From the NCBI RefSeq assembly GCF_030651835.1, contig NZ_JAUSBX010000004.1, positions 1 to 64,000 on the forward strand: a stretch of 64,000 bases of DNA. Reading direction: 5' to 3'. The DNA is from Methylicorpusculum sp. GTDB taxonomy: Bacteria > Pseudomonadota > Gammaproteobacteria > Methylococcales > Methylomonadaceae. The position numbers and the translations under genes were made by a program. Of this stretch, positions 4,971-58,690 are shown piece after piece. How positions within the stretch are numbered: position 1 is the first letter of the stretch; each line of letters begins with the position of its first letter. The notes beneath the pieces were generated by a model, which made no database searches, was not told the origin of the DNA, and saw only the letters and a list, made by a program, of their open reading frames with translations.

Positions 4971-5132
4971 CAGCAATTCCCTGTTTGATATTTTCAGCGT
5001 CATTTTGGGCTGGGGAAAGCCTTTCGAGGAACGCCGTAAACCCCTCTTTGGGGTTTGACGGCAGCATCCCTGATGCCGACATCCTCGTAAAGTTTCGCCC
5101 AACCCCTTTTTCCTTCAAATTGATAATTGCTG
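4971..5132 (+). mobile_element. Family 1 MITE-like element, copy 1
   Basis: A 162-bp non-coding element begins CAGCAATTCC and ends GATAATTGCTG, so its ends are inverted repeats. It shares its whole length with copies at 11.7 (inverted), 46.5, 55.7 and 58.5 kb. Hallmarks are AGGAACGCCGTAAACC, then a hairpin around GGCAGCATCCCTGATGCC, then CGTAAAGTTTCGCCC. It is flanked by ATGTTTCAGG (4961-4970) and ATGTTTTAGG (5133-5142), a likely target duplication with one mismatch. It lies in the otherwise empty gap of about 490 bp between divergently read genes. Confidence 0.8.
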
Positions 5133-9067: not shown

Positions 9068-9269
9068 GCATCTTAAGTCCCGGCATTGATATAAGTAGTA
9101 ACCGCCTTTTAAAGAAGAACCGCTCAAAAGACCCTTGAACCTTAATGGTCAAGGTTTTGATGTTTCGCTGCCTGAGTCTGCCGTCAAGACTTCATGGATG
9201 AGGTCTCAGGCTTTTAAGGCTGACGCCAACCTTCAAAGCCACATTAAATGTTCAAACCGGGAATGGCTG
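9068..9269 (-). repeat. Possible degenerate family 1 element
   Basis: The right edge TCAAACCGGGAATGGCTG (ending at 9269) resembles the family 1 terminus TCAAACTGGGAATTGCTG. The interior (CTGCCGTCAAGACTTCATGG, then CAGGCTTTTAAGG) follows the reverse-oriented copy at 11.7 kb loosely. The left edge is uncertain and the length is too great for a clean copy. It is probably an old, eroded member. Confidence 0.3.
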
Positions 9270-11688: not shown

Positions 11689-11853
11689 CAGGAGTAACTC
11701 TCCATTTGAAAGGAAAAGAGCTGGTGGAAGCTTTTTCAGGATGTCGGCAACAGCGATGCTGCTGTCAAGCCCTCATGGAAGGGTTTACGACGTTCCTCGA
11801 AAGGCTTTTTCCTGCCCAATATGAGACTGAAGCTATCAAACTGGGAATTGCTG
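11689..11853 (-). mobile_element. Family 1 MITE-like element, copy 2 (inverted)
   Basis: A 165-bp copy in reverse orientation to the other four. It ends TCAAACTGGGAATTGCTG on the right. Inside are the reverse forms of the family landmarks: CGGCAACAGCGATGCTGCTG hairpin, then GGGTTTACGACGTTCCTCG. The left end is more diverged. Flanks CAAGCTTTT (11680-11688) and CAGGATTTT (11855-11863) agree at 7 of 9 bases if one base of offset is allowed. It lies just past rhlE and may serve as its 3' end structure. Confidence 0.7.
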
Positions 11854-16533: not shown

Positions 16534-16935
16534 TAATAACGTGCTGCAAGGTTTGTCGGGCGATGGCGGCAGCATTTCGGCTGTGGTCATCCCAACTAAT
16601 CTTGCGTCCCCCTCTTATATAATCGAATTGGTCATTGCTGGTCGAATAGAAAATTGAAGTAATAAAAAAAGACAAAGCTATAATCCTGAAGATGCTTTTG
16701 TTGATTAAAACGCGGGTGGGTATTTTTCAGTATCTACCTGGACATTGGCTTTTTAGGATAATAGTCTGCTATTAATTTTGAAAACTATTTGGGTTCAGGA
16801 AAAACATTTAAAGCACGAAAACAATCAATGAGATGCCCGGTTGTCGACCTTTACCTAAAAGGTTAATGGTTGATACGGCAACAGACTGAGTTTTTGTATC
16901 TTTTGAGCTTTTCGTGGGCTGATTGTGTTTTTTTT
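16534..16935. other. Intergenic region with no recognised feature
   Basis: AT-rich spacer following the DUF2126 gene. No coding pattern or RNA gene was found. It leads into a family 2 element, so the downstream ATP-grasp gene is separated by about 630 bp from the gene it normally works with and may have its own promoter. Confidence 0.4.
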
Positions 16936-21658: not shown

Positions 21659-21900
21659 TTAAGGTCTTTTTTAGTTCAATGTGTTTGAAAACCGGAATTG
21701 ACGTGGCTATTGTAAAGCTATCTTGTTATGAAAGTTTTTAAGTTTTACTGATGCTGTTCGATATTTTTGGCTAAACGTTTGGCGAGAAACGCTGTTGACT
21801 CATAGATGCTGACTTTACGGCAGCATCCACAAAAAGCTCTTGTTGACGGAGAATGAACGGAATTCTTTTGTTGCATGGTTATAAAGAAATTTGTCCATTA

Positions 21901-43942: not shown

Positions 43943-44016
43943 GTGAGCTGATTTTGCTTTGATAAGTTGCTAATATTGCTGATTTTATAGCTTATTGTTG
44001 TTCAGGGCGAACTGAA

Positions 44017-44775
44017 ATGCACATTCTGTTGAGTAATGATGACGGTTATCTGGCGCCGGGTTTAGCTGCATTAGCCAATGCACTAAACAAATACGCAGAA
44101 ATATCGGTTGTAGCCCCCGATAAAAATCGAAGCGCAGCGAGCAACTCGCTGACCCTTGAAATGCCGTTGCGTGCTCAAATCGGAGAGAACGGTTTTGTCA
44201 AAGTCGACGGTACGCCAACTGATTGTGTTCATTTGGCAATCACCGGATTACTGGACAAGGAACCGGATATGGTTTTTGCAGGCATCAATCACGGCGCTAA
44301 TCTGGGTGATGATGTTTTATATTCGGGCACGGTAGCCGCTGCGACAGAAGGGCGTTTTTTGGGCTTGCCCGCCGTTGCCATTTCTTTGGCGTCCTGTGAT
44401 CCTGTGCATTTTGATACGGCGGCGCATGTTGCTGTGACAATCCTGAAGCGGCTGATTGCTTCCCCTTTACCTCAGGATACTTTGCTGAATGTTAATGTTC
44501 CCGATCTGCCTTTGCACGAATTAAAAGGCTTTCAGGCGACCCGCCTGGGTCAGCGGCATAAAGCTGAAGCCATGATCAGCAGTCATGATCCCAGGGGCCG
44601 ACTTATTTACTGGGTGGGGCCTCCCGGTCCTGAACAGGATGCGGGCCCCGGCACTGATTTTTATGCCATTAAAGCCGGTTATGTCTCCGTAACCCCGCTG
44701 CAATTGGATTTGACCTGGCATGGACGCATCGACGGATTGAAAAACTGGTTACCCCAGGAGGGAGCCTGGTTATGA
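44017..44775 (+). CDS. surE: 5'/3'-nucleotidase SurE
   Basis: 252 residues. A metal-dependent phosphatase that removes phosphate from nucleoside monophosphates and short polyphosphate. Motifs: [14 protein letters not shown] with the two metal-binding Asp residues, [28 protein letters not shown] and [20 protein letters not shown]. It overlaps pcm by 4 bases, as in many Proteobacteria. Confidence 0.95.
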
Positions 44776-45431
44776 AACAAAATGTCAACGGCATAGGCAT
44801 GACTTCCATGCGGACCCGGGAGCGCATGATAAGCAGGTTGGAAGAGCAGGGCATCACTGATCGTAAAATTTTGGATGCGATGCGCAATACCCCCAGACAT
44901 TTGTTTGTGGATGAAGCATTGGCCAGCCGGGCTTATGAAGATACAGCATTGCCGATAGGCTATAACCAGACGATTTCGCAGCCTTATATCGTCGCAAAAA
45001 TGACCGAATTGTTGCTGGCTCCCGGCCCGTTGACCAAGGTGCTGGAAATCGGCACCGGATGCGGTTACCAAACAGCTATTCTGGCGCAATTGATTGACCA
45101 TGTTTATACCGTGGAACGGATCCAGCCTTTGCAAAAAAAGGCGAAGAACCTGCTGTGGTCGATAAAAATAAAGAATGTCAGTTATTTGCACAGTGACGGA
45201 GGTTGGGGCTGGGAAGATCATGCGCCTTATGACGGCATCATAGTGACAGCTGCGCCGCCGGAAATCCCTGAAAATTTATTAATGCAAATGGCGGTTGGCG
45301 GGACAATGCTGATACCTATAGGTAAGGCTGGTGGGCAGGTTTTGCAACGCGTCACCCGCACTGAAAATGATTTTAAAGTTGAAGCGGTGGAACCTGTCAG
45401 CTTTGTCCCTTTACTCCCAGGAAGGCAATAA
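44772..45431 (+). CDS. pcm: Protein-L-isoaspartate O-methyltransferase
   Basis: 219 residues. It uses SAM to methylate isoaspartyl residues so damaged proteins can be repaired. The SAM-binding motif [18 protein letters not shown] and the substrate segment [14 protein letters not shown] are present; the C-terminal FVPLLPGRQ is typical. A strong AGGAGGGAG ribosome site lies within the end of surE. In Pseudomonas and Escherichia nlpD and rpoS follow; here they do not. Confidence 0.95.
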
Positions 45432-45436
45432 ACCGA

Positions 45437-46015
45437 ATGTTTAAAAAACTTTATGACCGCGTTTTGCTTTGGTCAAGGCACCGCAATGCATTAACCTATC
45501 TGTGTATCTTAAGTTTTGCCGAGTCCTCTTTTTTTCCAATACCACCGGATGTCATGCTGGCGCCCATGGCCTTGGCTCAGCCTTCCAAAGCTTTCCGGTT
45601 CGCACTTTGGACTACGATTGCGTCGGTGTTGGGTGGTGTTTTGGGTTATGAAATAGGTTATTTTCTGTTTGATAATATCGAGCCGTGGCTCAAAACCACG
45701 CATTATTGGGAAAGTTATACAAAAGCCATTGACTGGTTTGGCGAGTGGGGTTTTTGGGCTGTTTTTGTTGCCGGTTTTTCGCCGATACCTTACAAAGTCT
45801 TTACCATTGCAGCCGGCGCGTTGAATATGGTGTTTATTCCGTTTGTGCTGGCTTCTTTGATTGGCCGTGGCGGTCGGTTTTTTCTGGTTTCGTTACTTAT
45901 AGTGGTTGGTGGAAAAAAGCTGGAGTCGAATTTACGCAAATACATGGACCTCATAGGCTGGGCTTTGGTTGCCATCGTGGTGATTGGTGCCGTCGCTTAT
46001 AAAATAATGAATTAA
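45437..46015 (+). CDS. YqaA/DedA-type VTT-domain membrane protein
   Basis: 192 residues with about four to five membrane helices. The VTT (SNARE-associated/DedA) signature is seen in FAESSFFPIPPDVMLAPMALA, GGVLGYEIGYF and FSPIPYKVFTIAAGAL. Bacterial DedA relatives flip or move lipids, including undecaprenyl phosphate and phosphatidylethanolamine; a precise substrate is not known. It follows pcm by 5 bases and is part of the same unit. Confidence 0.8.
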   Translation: MFKKLYDRVLLWSRHRNALTYLCILSFAESSFFPIPPDVMLAPMALAQPSKAFRFALWTTIASVLGGVLGYEIGYFLFDNIEPWLKTTHYWESYTKAIDWFGEWGFWAVFVAGFSPIPYKVFTIAAGALNMVFIPFVLASLIGRGGRFFLVSLLIVVGGKKLESNLRKYMDLIGWALVAIVVIGAVAYKIMN

Positions 46016-46312
46016 ATGATGACGACATTAATGCCTGATTTAGTGGGCTATATAGCGGCTGCTTTGACGACTGCTTCATTTCTGCCCCAAGCTATACTGA
46101 CGATCAAAACCCGCAATACCGAATCTCTTTCATTGGGGATGTACAGCGCGTTTACGCTGGGTGTTCTGTTATGGTTAGTCTATGGTCTTTTAAAACAAGA
46201 CTACGCCATTATCATGGCTAACTTAATCACTTTCGTTCTGTCCGGTTCCATTCTCTGCTACAAAATATTCAATACAGTTAAGGCTAAAAAGGCAAGCCGT
46301 AATAAGGGTTAA
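46016..46312 (+). CDS. SemiSWEET-family (PQ-loop) transporter
   Basis: 98 residues with three membrane helices and the PQ motif in ASFLPQAILTIKTRNTESLSLGMY, the hallmark of SemiSWEET half-transporters, which dimerise to pass sugars across the membrane. The ATG directly follows the upstream stop codon (TAAATG), so the two are probably coupled. Family members are 85-100 residues, so this is full length. Confidence 0.8.
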   Translation: MMTTLMPDLVGYIAAALTTASFLPQAILTIKTRNTESLSLGMYSAFTLGVLLWLVYGLLKQDYAIIMANLITFVLSGSILCYKIFNTVKAKKASRNKG

Positions 46313-46453
46313 GCCATAGTCATAAACCGGCGCGACGATCTGCTGGACTTACCGCTCACCCTGAACTCAGGCTAAGGCATTTAACCTGTTTCAAAGGACC
46401 ATTTTGGGGTTTATCTTTTTACACGACATTTTTCAGGTTGTCTTCTCATGAAC

Positions 46454-46619
46454 CAGCACTTCCCAGTTCGAAATTTTTAATGTGGCTTCGAGGGTAGGCG
46501 TAAACCTTGCGAGGAACGCCGCCGACCCATCCATGGGAGCTTGACAACAGCATCCCTGCTGCCGACATCCCCGCAAAGCTTACGTCTACCTTTTATTATC
46601 ATCAAACTGGGAATTGCTG
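46454..46619 (+). mobile_element. Family 1 MITE-like element, copy 3, at a start codon
   Basis: A 166-bp copy from CAGCACTTCCCAG to GGGAATTGCTG. It is flanked by a perfect 9-bp duplication, CTCATGAAC at 46445-46453 and 46620-46628. The duplicated bases contain the ATG of the aldo/keto reductase, so the insertion split the gene's leader from its start. Internal landmarks GAGGAACGCC and the CAGCATCCCTGCTG hairpin are conserved. Confidence 0.85.
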
Positions 46620-46622
46620 CTC

Positions 46623-47474
46623 ATGAACCAAAACCTCTATTTGACTTCCGCCTATAACGTAAAAATGCCTCGTATTATTTACGGCACGGCCTGGAAGAAA
46701 GAGCGCACTGCAGCTTTGGTGCAGCAAGCCATCCAACAAGGATTCAGAGGCATCGACACGGCTTGCCAGCCCAAACATTATAACGAAGCCGGGGTAGGTG
46801 AAGGCTTGGCGGCGACCCTCAACAAGGGTTTGGAACGCAGCAATTTGTACTTGCAAACCAAGTTTACGCCGTTAGACGGACAAGATCCTTTGCGGGTGCC
46901 TTACGATGTCAAAGCCAGTCTCAGTGAGCAGGTGGCCCAATCGTTTGAAACGTCGCTGACTAACCTCAAAACCGAATATCTGGATTGTCTGGTGCTGCAT
47001 TCGCCTTTGGCTGATACTGAGCAACTGCAGGAGGTCTGGCAGGCAATGGAGCGGATTTTCACAGAAGGCAGCGCTAAACAACTGGGCATCAGCAATTGCT
47101 ATGATCTTAAACAGCTTGAGTATTTATATCGGCAGGCAGCGATCAAGCCGGCCGTGTTGCAAAACCGGTTTTATGCCGATAAACACTATGACCGCTGTAT
47201 CCGTGACTATTGCAAGCAACAGCACATCATCTATCAAAGCTTTTGGACACTGACGGCAAACCCTCATGTTCTGGCCCATGAGGTTCTAAAAAACCTGGCA
47301 GCAAAACACGGTCGCACGGAAGCGCAAATCTTTTTCCGCTATTTAAGCCAAATTGACATCATTCCATTAACCGGCACCACATCGGTTGAACATATGTCAG
47401 AGGATTTACAGATTTTCGACTTTGAACTGACAAGCAACGAGTGTCAAAGCATTGAGGCCTTGCTGTTAGACTGA
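46623..47474 (+). CDS. Aldo/keto reductase
   Basis: 283 residues of the NADPH-dependent aldo/keto reductase family. IYGTAWKKERTAALVQQAIQ, FRGIDTACQPKHYNEAGVGEGLA, a catalytic-lysine region (LQTKFTPL) and YLDCLVLHSPL, then QLGISNCY, are recognisable. The Tyr of the tetrad seems to align with YNEAGVG and the Lys with TKF. Substrate unknown. A family 1 element lies directly before the codons; the present ATG at 46623 has no ribosome site, while the original leader (AGGTTGTCTTCTCATG) is now 170 bp upstream. Confidence 0.8.
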   Translation: MNQNLYLTSAYNVKMPRIIYGTAWKKERTAALVQQAIQQGFRGIDTACQPKHYNEAGVGEGLAATLNKGLERSNLYLQTKFTPLDGQDPLRVPYDVKASLSEQVAQSFETSLTNLKTEYLDCLVLHSPLADTEQLQEVWQAMERIFTEGSAKQLGISNCYDLKQLEYLYRQAAIKPAVLQNRFYADKHYDRCIRDYCKQQHIIYQSFWTLTANPHVLAHEVLKNLAAKHGRTEAQIFFRYLSQIDIIPLTGTTSVEHMSEDLQIFDFELTSNECQSIEALLLD

Positions 47475-47618
47475 TGATAAAGCGGTAATAGTTAAATGAG
47501 GTCAGCTAGCCTTTATCATCCCTGCCTTGTTTTAGGGAGATGAGGTTCACGTTCGCAAGTGGCAAGGATTTGATAAGATCCGCCTGCTTTGATTTTGAGG
47601 TGCTTTTTTGATGGGTTC

Positions 47619-48689
47619 TTATCCCGATTGTTCTTCGTTTTGTTGCTCCAGCCATGCTCGCCATACCGCCAGCAAAACCGCCAGTATGATTGGCCCGAGG
47701 AAAAGACCAAGGGCTCCGAATGCTGATAAGCCGCCCAACACGCCGAAGAAGACAACTAAAAAAGGCACCTTTCCCGCACCGCTGATGATGAGCGGCCTGA
47801 TGACATTGTCGACGGTACTGACGACCAATCCACCCCAAAGAAGCACGCCTAGGCCATCCGTAAACCGATCCATCATGATAAGTGCGATGCCGATAGGTAA
47901 CCAGATCAAGGCTGCGCCGATCATAGGTACCATAGCGAGCAGGGCGGTAATTGCCGCGAACAGTACAGGGGCGTTAACATCGGCGAAATAAAAACCCAGT
48001 CCAGCCAAAACACCCTGGCTTAGAGCGGTAAGAACCAGTCCGTAAACCACTGCGCTGGTTGTATTGGCAATAGCCGACAGATAAATATTTTGATGTTTGC
48101 CCAGAAAACGGACCAGGCCTTTGCGAAGTTGTTCAACCACTTTTTCGCCATCGCGAAAACAGAAAAAGACGGTAACGGTCACAACCGCCAGCTTCATAAT
48201 GTAATGACCGATACCCCCTAAAATCTTACCCAGATAACCCAGCCATTGCTTGGCCCATTCCGACAGTTGGGCCTTGACGCCCGCTCGGTCGCTCACCACA
48301 AGGTCCAGCCATTCCTGCAGATAATCACCCACCCAGGGGATATGTCGGATGAATGCCGGCAATTCGTAAGGACCTTGCAATAAATCAACCACTATCGCCT
48401 GATACGCTATTTTGAGTTCGTCCTGCAGCACTGCAGCCATCCAGAACACAACAACAAAGATTAAGGCGGCGGTGACGCTGGTCATCAGTAGTGCGCTCAC
48501 CGTTGCATTATTTTTAAGCAGCTTCCGCAATCTGCGATAAATAGGCCACGTCGAGTAGGCCAAAATAAACGACCACGTCAATGTCTGGAAAAATTCGCTT
48601 AATACCCAATAAGCGAGCATTAAAAGCCCAGTCAATAAAGTAACGGGAATCAAATAGCTTAACGGTGAGTTGTTCGGCGAGTCGTTCAT
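47619..48689 (-). CDS. AI-2E family (PerM) permease
   Basis: 356 residues, about eight membrane helices. The large periplasmic loop after helix 3 and the conserved GVLAGLGFYFADVNAPVLFAAITALLAMVPMIGAALIWLPIG segment mark the AI-2E transporter/PerM family (PF01594). Members export small molecules or ions; some are Na+/H+ antiporters. The substrate cannot be read. The gene ends just before a convergent aldo/keto reductase. Confidence 0.85.
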   Translation of the reverse strand: MNDSPNNSPLSYLIPVTLLTGLLMLAYWVLSEFFQTLTWSFILAYSTWPIYRRLRKLLKNNATVSALLMTSVTAALIFVVVFWMAAVLQDELKIAYQAIVVDLLQGPYELPAFIRHIPWVGDYLQEWLDLVVSDRAGVKAQLSEWAKQWLGYLGKILGGIGHYIMKLAVVTVTVFFCFRDGEKVVEQLRKGLVRFLGKHQNIYLSAIANTTSAVVYGLVLTALSQGVLAGLGFYFADVNAPVLFAAITALLAMVPMIGAALIWLPIGIALIMMDRFTDGLGVLLWGGLVVSTVDNVIRPLIISGAGKVPFLVVFFGVLGGLSAFGALGLFLGPIILAVLLAVWRAWLEQQNEEQSG

Positions 48690-48732
48690 ACTTTGATCTG
48701 CGCGATTGAAGATTTAAAAGCAGGAAGGGATT

Positions 48733-50043
48733 TTACTCCTCCGTCGTGTTCTCAATAATTTTATGAATGCGTTTAAGACCCAGAGCAACGGCTATCATGA
48801 TAACCGGTATCGAGACCCCCACCGCTATTTCCGGTCTGACGTGCCAGCCTGCCGCGTGCACGGCTTTGGCGATTGAACCGATCAGGCCGGCGGCGTAATA
48901 AGTAATGGCGACGATGGAAATTCCTTCAACAGTTTGTTGCATTCGAAATTGCATTTTTGCCCGTAACGCCATGGAAGTCAGCAGGCCTTGATTTTGTCGT
49001 TCGATGACAATATCAACGCGGGTCCGTAGCAGTTGGCTGGTATTGCCGACTCTTTCCGAAAGCGATTTGAACCGTTTGGAGGTCGACTGACACGTATTGA
49101 TCGCCGGTTCCATCCGCCGTTTGATAAATTCACCCAAGGTTTGGATGCCTTGTATCCTGACTTCCCGCAAATCTTCAAGACGCTGCCCGACCAATTGATA
49201 ATAAGCGCCGGCGGCGGCAAAGCGAAAATGATTGCTGGAAATATGATTTTCAATTTCTGCAGCCAATGCCGTAAGTTCATCCAAGAGTTGGGCATCGTTG
49301 CTGTTGCCCGATTGCGCCATCGCATTGGTGATAGTGTAGAGTTTGTGGTCCGCTTGTTTTAAATCCGGGGCCAGTTTTCTGGCAATCGGGAAAGCCAGTA
49401 AGGCCATGACCCGGTAAACTTCAATCTCAAACAAACGGTGTAATAAGCGTCCCGCCTGTTCGGTTCTGAGGCTATGGTTGATAATCAGAAAGCGGCTGAA
49501 TCCGTCTACATGAATTTTAAAGTCAGTGAAGACCTGTGCCGCTCCACCAGTCACTTTGGATCCTACGACCGGGTTATTGGAAAAATGCGCGGCAATCGGG
49601 GATAAATCAGTTTCCTCATGCTTATCGGGAGCCGGTGCCGATTTAATCGCCGCATGAGCGGCGACCATTAGCTGACCGGGTAATCCGGACAACCAATCCA
49701 ATGGGACCTGTTTAAGTGCGGGTTCTGAAAACGGATCGCTGGGGATGTTTTGTACATAAAAAGTATAGGTGCTGAATTCACCGTGTTGTTCCCAGCGGAT
49801 TTGAAAATTATCGAAGGTTGCACTGAGGTGATCGGCGTCTTTTTCCGGGCTTGGTTTGCCGTAGCGCTGGCACAGTTTGCTCAAATGTTCGCGTTCACGC
49901 TGTTTTTCCTCACTCGTCAATAACAAGGCGAGATGGCTGGCTCTGATCGGTAATTCCAGGGTCAGAGAGGCGCGGGCATGTACTTCGTTATGCAGTACAA
50001 AGCGTTGCGGATGATTTTGAGGCAGTGGGAATAAGGTTGTCAC
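48733..50043 (-). CDS. DUF3422 family membrane-anchored protein
   Basis: 436 residues. The start FPLPQNHPQRFVLHNEVHARA is diagnostic for DUF3422. The long middle part is helical (SKRFKSLSERVGNTSQLLRTRVDI), and two membrane helices lie at about 370-420 (ITYYAAGLIGSIAKAVH, AVGVSIPVIMIAVALGL). The function is unknown. The start is GTG at 50043. It reads in the same direction as the permease, 43 bp away. Confidence 0.8.
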   Translation of the reverse strand: MTTLFPLPQNHPQRFVLHNEVHARASLTLELPIRASHLALLLTSEEKQREREHLSKLCQRYGKPSPEKDADHLSATFDNFQIRWEQHGEFSTYTFYVQNIPSDPFSEPALKQVPLDWLSGLPGQLMVAAHAAIKSAPAPDKHEETDLSPIAAHFSNNPVVGSKVTGGAAQVFTDFKIHVDGFSRFLIINHSLRTEQAGRLLHRLFEIEVYRVMALLAFPIARKLAPDLKQADHKLYTITNAMAQSGNSNDAQLLDELTALAAEIENHISSNHFRFAAAGAYYQLVGQRLEDLREVRIQGIQTLGEFIKRRMEPAINTCQSTSKRFKSLSERVGNTSQLLRTRVDIVIERQNQGLLTSMALRAKMQFRMQQTVEGISIVAITYYAAGLIGSIAKAVHAAGWHVRPEIAVGVSIPVIMIAVALGLKRIHKIIENTTEE

Positions 50044-55713: not shown

Positions 55714-55876
55714 CAGCAATTCTCAGTTTGATCTTTTCGGCGTCATTTTGGGCTGGGAAAAGCCTTATCAGGAACGCCGTAAACCCTTCCATGGGGGCTT
55801 GAACAGCAGCATCCCTGCTGCCGACATCCTCAAAAAGCTTCCCCAGCCCTTTTTTTGTTCAAATTGAGAATGGCTG
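55714..55876 (+). mobile_element. Family 1 MITE-like element, copy 4
   Basis: A 163-bp copy from CAGCAATTCTCAG to GAGAATGGCTG with intact internal landmarks. Flanks GCAATCCCG (55705-55713) and GCAATCCTG (55877-55885) agree at 8 of 9 bases. The flanks rejoin into CTCCGGCAATCCTGTCGGAA, the core of a REP-like repeat, so this element has inserted into another repeat. Confidence 0.85.
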
Positions 55877-58526: not shown

Positions 58527-58690
58527 CAGCAATTCTCAGTTTGATCTTTGCGGCGTCATTTTGGGCAGGGAAAAGCCTTTTGAGGTACGCCGTAAACCCT
58601 TCCATGGGGGCTTGACAGCAGCATCCCTGCTGCCGACATCCTCAAAAAGCTTCCCCCAGCCCTTTTTTCTCTTCAAATTGAGAATTGCTG
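58527..58690 (+). mobile_element. Family 1 MITE-like element, copy 5
   Basis: A 164-bp copy from CAGCAATTCTCAG to GAGAATTGCTG with the full set of landmarks, closest to the copy at 55.7 kb. Flanks CCTTTTTCA (58518-58526) and CAGTTTTCA (58691-58699) match at 7 of 9. It lies 100 bp upstream of hsdM, at the edge of the restriction island. Confidence 0.85.

Follow-up and report, generated by a model that had tools for sequence, protein, structure and literature searches.

What becomes of a gene when a mobile element lands exactly on its start codon and leaves a second copy of that codon behind? The question is raised by an aldo/keto reductase gene in the 64,000-nucleotide stretch of DNA analyzed here (the window), where a 166-bp element lies between two identical copies of CTCATGAAC, each of which contains ATG-AAC of the reductase. 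A first-pass annotation had described this perfect 9-bp repeat, and direct reading of the sequence agrees with it. It is likewise correct that the left ATG, which keeps the native leader, now opens a ten-codon frame ending in TAA. The features of the locus are as follows.

46016-46312, forward strand: SemiSWEET transporter gene, the upstream neighbor, on the same strand as the reductase gene
46435-46439, forward strand: AGGTT, the weak native Shine-Dalgarno-like sequence, which now adjoins the ten-codon frame
46445-46453, forward strand: left 9-bp target duplication CTCATGAAC, with the old ATG at 46448-46450
46448-46480, forward strand: ten-codon frame MNQHFPVRNF-stop, a product of the insertion, running from the left ATG to TAA
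46454-46619, forward strand: the 166-bp MITE copy
46454-46471, forward strand: left terminal inverted repeat CAGCACTTCCCAGTTCGA, 16/18 versus the family consensus CAGCAATTCCCAGTTTGA
46487-46598, forward strand: structured interior, a long stem around a junction with two short hairpins, like repeats of other gammaproteobacteria
46602-46619, reverse strand: right terminal inverted repeat, exactly the family consensus
46609-46613, forward strand: GGGAA in the right terminal inverted repeat, a candidate substitute ribosome-binding sequence
46620-46628, forward strand: right copy of the target duplication, with the present start codon ATG at 46623-46625
46623-47474, forward strand: aldo/keto reductase gene, 283 aa, frame intact (PF00248, E 2.1e-30)

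The 18-bp terminal inverted repeats (TIRs) of this copy are complementary at 16 of 18 positions, and the ORF list contains no frame of at least 60 aa wholly inside 46454-46619. When delimited mechanically, the reductase ORF extends back to an in-frame TTG at 46614, within the TIR. At the window copy the flanks agree over 11 letters, CTCATGAACCA, since CA is both the first dinucleotide of the element and the next one in the native gene. We set the duplication at 9 bp because the family ends are CAG...CTG and a 9-bp rule applies family-wide.

The same junction is unoccupied in the two nearest relatives, both of them congeners. At the orthologous position, genome G002 (loci L041 and L160) reads TTGTCTTCTCATGAATCCAAAC and the congener G001 reads TTGTCTCCCCATGAACCAAAAC, or, in longer reads of the junction, TTGTCTTCTCATGAATCCAAACC and TTGTCTCCCCATGAACCAAAACC, respectively; both carry a single copy of the target and lack the element. 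When the window flanks are joined, they align to G001 and G002 free of gaps across the junction, and each relative differs near this point from the single-copy flank of the source genome (G000) by point changes only. Farther upstream, the alignment of the G001 leader is poor and has many gaps. Among the three genus members searched, the insertion is present only in the source genome. The empty site anticipated by the annotation thus exists in its single-copy arrangement in both relatives, but the exact predicted sequence CTCATGAACCAAAAC occurs in neither. The best named match of the reductase belongs to the MAG Methylomicrobium sp. CROMO_BS_115_2, with 89% identity.

The inserted sequence is a non-autonomous MITE that belongs to a high-copy family in the Methylococcales genus of the source organism. 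Specifically, the end repeat CAGCAATTCYCAGTTTGA, with up to 2 mismatches permitted, occurs at 316 sites in the 4.6-Mb draft of the source genome and at 107 in G001, and the reversed control pattern yields 0 sites in the same search. When used as a query against the source genome, the 166-bp sequence gives 42 matches, with 40 of 208 candidates scored. A match is present in 7 of 61 genomes (the source genome and relatives), namely G000, G001, G002, G011, G050, G040 and G058, although in the last three it is limited to the interior or part of it. From the fetched loci we assembled a sample of 74 TIR-bounded copies with facing ends 61 to 217 bp apart; 51 are 160-167 bp long and 11 are 205-217 bp long. 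The 9-bp duplication is perfect in 23 of the 74, matches at 8 of 9 positions in 16 more and at fewer in 35, and none of the 74 has a perfect abutting duplication of 4-8 or 10-12 bp. The annotation had taken the window copy as proof of target duplication by the family. The duplication is real, as these 23 perfect copies demonstrate, but the window copy, for which an 11-bp match is also possible, is not proof by itself. An abundant TIR family, fixed 9-bp duplications and empty sites in relatives do confirm its view of the sequence as a mobile element.

Among the copies examined, the nearest relative of the window copy is 90% identical, which gives no hint of a very recent burst. The end repeat has one variable position (CCC or CTC); the two ends agree there in 37 of 54 MITE copies (24 C-G, 13 U-A), and the other 17 are mismatched (C with A in 11, U with G in 6). 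More full or partial family copies reside elsewhere in the window (4971-5132, 9178-9269, 11693-11853, 55714-55876 and 58527-58690), as do weaker pieces (16564-16640 and 21782-21828). The MITE copy at L015:1501-1667, whose 9-bp duplication is perfect, carries a mutated right end that reads ATG and opens a frame into the downstream ORF. A search of the literature on MITEs of methanotrophs and Methylomicrobium found nothing on the present family.

What, then, moves these elements? The probable mobilizers are intact IS4-like elements, 1.41-1.44 kb long and with ends resembling those of the MITE, a case made up of end similarity and duplication length. Some IS4-family members are known to make 9-bp duplications. 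In G001, single long frames lie between end repeats spaced 1412 or 1440-1441 bp apart, and we inspected four such copies, two of 1412 bp (CCC type) and two of 1440-1441 bp (CTC type). All four have an exact 9-bp duplication and an open frame of 435-458 residues from stop to stop, and two listed ORFs encode 433 and 457 aa; a single transposase ORF is also the arrangement of IS4-like insertion sequences (DDE_Tnp_1). The 18-bp ends of these insertion sequences (ISs) begin CAGCAATTC(C/T)CA and match MITE ends of their own type, CCC or CTC, at 16 of 18 positions. No long match beyond the ends is shared by the MITE copies and the ISs; the longest match at the ends is 19 nt, and elsewhere the best reach 16-17 nt. 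We use 'IS4-like' as a working label because the match of the 433-aa transposase to Pfam DDE_Tnp_1 (PF01609) is borderline, at 23.2 bits versus a cut-off of 23, and its score of 18.9 with the NCBIfam IS4 model NF033591 is far under the cut-off of 152. The 457-aa homologue has no Pfam or NCBIfam match, a PDB search with the transposase gave no sequence match up to E 1, and a search of a plasmid collection with the IS returned five records, none of which covers 80%.

The window copy has CCC-type ends. ISs of this type were found in G001, as 98-100% fragments in G002 and as 88-96% pieces in G011; they are absent from the search of the source genome, where the sole IS match, and the one intact relative, is of the CTC type (C109:1-1441). 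A CCC-type copy may be collapsed in, or missing from, this draft assembly. The left end of the CTC-type copy (L200) coincides with the contig edge, and collapse during assembly may mask how many copies of it there really are. In G002, most of the 28 transposase matches are short fragments, many of them at the first bases of contigs, and the IS appears to break that assembly.

Overall, this is a MITE family of a known kind, and the window copy looks like an ordinary accident of an abundant family. According to the portions available of its published description (PMC6382973), MITEAba12, the partner of ISAba12 in Acinetobacter, is likewise short and non-coding with TIRs and 9-bp duplications. There, too, the resemblance to the IS does not extend beyond the ends, the proposed mobilizer is an IS whose ends are alike, and insertions lie both beside and within genes. 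The two elements differ in that the TIR sequence of MITEAba12 (GGCTTTGTTGC...) and its IS are unrelated to those described here. Moreover, MITEAba12 is 113 bp long, AT-rich and weakly structured, whereas the present element has a very stable structured interior.

We consider it probable that a MITE came by chance to rest on the reductase start codon, with an IS4-like element as its probable mobilizer, and that the hairpin leader it created lowers translation. Under this proposal, insertion across the start codon was a chance event, driven in trans, most probably, by an IS4-like transposase that makes 9-bp target duplications, which is why CTCATGAAC was duplicated. The coding sequence is unchanged, and the leader would now form a long hairpin. 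Because TCATGA in the duplicated 9-mer is palindromic, its two copies can pair. In mRNA arriving from upstream they would do so, leaving both start codons within the base of the hairpin, and therefore translation should fall.

The predicted fold points to weaker translation of whatever transcripts run through the element. The minimum-energy structure of 46425-46660 has a predicted stability of -72.4 kcal/mol (z -4.8), which is equaled by 0 of 200 shuffles. It places both start codons in the basal helix of the hairpin and pairs the native AGGTT with AACCT inside the reductase gene. Opening the start region is predicted to cost 23.0 kcal/mol in the occupied leader versus 9.3 for the joined empty site, 5.2 for G001 and 7.5 for G002. 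The expected number of pairs between the two duplication copies is 5.9 for the window copy versus a median of 2.5 for the 28 copies with good duplications, a value that ties with one other copy for third highest of the 28. From these models we infer that reductase expression is likely lowered with the occupied leader, though not necessarily abolished. The gene itself gives no indication of decay. Its dN/dS values by NG86 are 0.149 (G000-G001), 0.133 (G000-G002) and 0.121 (G001-G002), and by YN00 they are 0.25, 0.25 and 0.18 in the same order, such that the ratio seems at most slightly raised on the side of the source genome. To judge from these values and the intact frame, the reductase gene is not yet marked as dead. 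Expression may persist, or the insertion may be recent.

Could the reductase instead still be made, with transcription or ribosome loading beginning in the right end, so that the element stands in for the lost leader? We see this as possible, although on balance doubtful. The annotation had stated that the right copy of the start codon lacks a ribosome site, and in this it was mistaken: GGGAA in the right TIR lies 9 nt before the ATG, and its predicted anti-Shine-Dalgarno pairing (-4.2 kcal/mol) is stronger than that of the native AGGT (-3.2 kcal/mol). By this measure the substitute is nonetheless weak and unremarkable, since 21% of 1000 random 20-mers reach -4.2 kcal/mol (36% reach -3.2), as do 39% of the 31 long ATG ORFs in the window, and the predicted fold of full-length transcripts buries GGGAA in the TIR stem. 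Transcripts that start within the right end, from 46585-46610, are predicted to leave the ATG open, at an opening cost of 2.1-5.4 kcal/mol, but a promoter scan found no sigma-70-like site in the element. Retained expression is also consistent with the intact ORF, with its dN/dS of 0.12-0.25 by pair and method, and with the report, in the same partial source (PMC6382973), that MITEAba12 starts transcripts from one end. In addition, downstream genes point away from the right end at 30 of 45 copies (p 0.036), which is not what one would expect of an element that always silences them. These gene calls are crude longest-ORF calls, for which 20 of the 74 copies were dropped because of short flanks (54 left) and 45 were used to count orientation. 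The same count weakens the reading of the element as a strong terminator, which should avoid downstream genes in its own direction. Termination of transcription before the gene, by a GC-rich inner stem and a following T-rich stretch (CCTTTTATTAT in the window copy and CCCTTTTTT in many copies) that resemble an intrinsic terminator, is in our estimation unlikely. At least 5 T occur in some 8 bases of the right-hand tract in 53 of 55 oriented copies of up to 180 bp, a count for which no chance expectation was computed, and the window copy combines 6 T in 8 with a strong inner stem. Yet a terminator scan, which allows loops of 3-8 only, did not call the element.

Two further alternatives receive much less credence. 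Ribosomes might load at the native site, translate the ten codons and then resume at the second ATG. The short frame retains the native leader, and in the predicted hairpin its start lies close to the second ATG, but its stop codon is 142 nt before that ATG, on the left side of a highly stable hairpin, and both ATGs are predicted to be paired. We thus judge re-initiation to be very improbable. It is harder still to believe that the family seeks out start codons or promoters. Most copies are intergenic, with 4 of 54 inside an ORF by the crude gene calls, and the window copy sits exactly on an ATG. However, the special attraction to start codons that this placement might imply is not reflected in the family, where ATG or CAT occurs in 8 of 39 good duplications versus 21% expected from window 9-mers, and the only target preference is for G/C-rich ends and an A/T-rich center. 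By hand arithmetic, if the 316 sites form about 158 TIR pairs and the genome is assumed to hold 4,100 genes, about one start-codon insertion would arise by chance. A copy at L013 (C130:21770) was considered as a second case, an element directly following a Shine-Dalgarno sequence and ATG, and was rejected because, by eye, some 70 nt separate the element from the start of the downstream gene.

An unexpected aspect is the structured interior, which resembles a three-way-junction repeat present elsewhere in the Gammaproteobacteria. Copies from G000, G001, G002, G011, G050, G058 and G040 have a core in common that comprises a long stem, a junction and two short hairpins. In an alignment of 14 of the 17 cores found (L143, L144 and L146 were left out), both sides have changed with pairing kept in at least one sequence for 22 of the 33 predicted pairs. 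This covariation of the core arms is support rather than proof, given that similarity guided the choice of sequences and that these also served to predict the structure. RNAalifold applied to the family alone, using 54 of 67 clustered copies (the 13 others being eleven of 205-217 bp, one of 148 and one of 154), gives -7.8 kcal/mol with 3 of 28 pairs changed on both sides, and does not recover the long inner stem. This model speaks against an easily seen family-wide consensus, perhaps because the alignment mixes two subfamilies. A covariance model built from the 14 cores has matches at E <= 1e-6 in 41 of 274 gammaproteobacterial genomes, where up to 13 candidates were scored per genome, E-values are rough, and G000 and G011, two of the 41, had supplied model sequences. 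Core copies also occur at L141, L142 and L147, and core matches in L229-L266.

Comparisons with Rfam identified no known family. A search of 33 locus entries (L139 twice) gave no family at cut-off on the element, where the only matches were sub-threshold ones to DUF3800-IV RNA, Ysr224 and one microRNA family; off the element there were other chance matches and real 6S and tRNA genes. In the window from 44000 to 49000, Rfam returned only a chance snoRNA match outside the element. DUF3800-IV RNA (RF02963) has, like the present core, a long stem with a junction, and matches on the opposite strand at 3 of 10 loci with 28.2-33.8 bits (E 0.05-0.93). This candidate was rejected, as its best score of 33.8 compares with a gathering score of 60.7. 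A search for a DUF3800 gene (PF12686) found no match in the source genome, and 4 of the 12 genomes searched have one.

YPAL/RU-2 of Yersinia (PMC2759123, PMC2229807, PMC2267715) resembles the core in copies from other genomes and in one family copy. The printed RU-2/YPAL sequence scores 59-62 against three core copies from G298, where 500 shuffles reach at most 24-32; two of the three score 62, with shuffle maxima of 29 and 32. The score is 37 against G143 (shuffle maximum 28), 42 against L142 (25) and 32 against the source-genome copy L013 (26); with the window copy its score of 17 is under the shuffle maximum of 25. The available text on YPAL (PMC2229807) reports internal inverted repeats and duplications that vary from 3 to 26 bp, whereas the present element has terminal repeats and a fixed 9-bp duplication. 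The same text reports that YPAL targets span or adjoin dyad symmetry, which could explain core arms that are unique to one locus. At L261 (G298:C1:37870-38190) a core is flanked by a long near-perfect inverted repeat, the arm of which is unique to its locus in G298 (1 forward and 1 reverse site with up to 3 mismatches). The arm at L264 belongs to a family of 29 + 25 sites in the same genome.

We regard a YPAL-like core carried within an IS-type MITE as a lead that these sequence comparisons suggest. A bolder reading, which we offer tentatively and would sooner doubt than endorse, is that the MITE interior is a structured mobile module, older and more widespread than the MITE: a three-way-junction core with conserved loops and covarying arms that occurs across Gammaproteobacteria, Yersinia YPAL among them, and that became nested in IS4-like ends. 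Recognition of the junction by a host or mobile factor would then be the reason for its retention, and each insertion would bring an RNA switch, in the present case onto a start codon.

The insertion at the reductase start codon is a plausible accident with a testable RNA consequence. Pairing of the two start codons through a palindromic target is a prediction that would follow from target duplication itself, and start-codon pairing of this kind is absent from the titles and abstract openings of the literature searched. An intact gene whose leader has been replaced by a hairpin, together with two relatives that retain the empty site, constitutes a natural experiment on the effect of a MITE on translation initiation. 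Through this element, moreover, an abundant MITE of a methanotroph is connected with a structured repeat core that matches in 41 of the 274 gammaproteobacterial genomes sampled. If the nested-module reading is true, then a transposase now spreads this core in a form that makes fixed 9-bp duplications.
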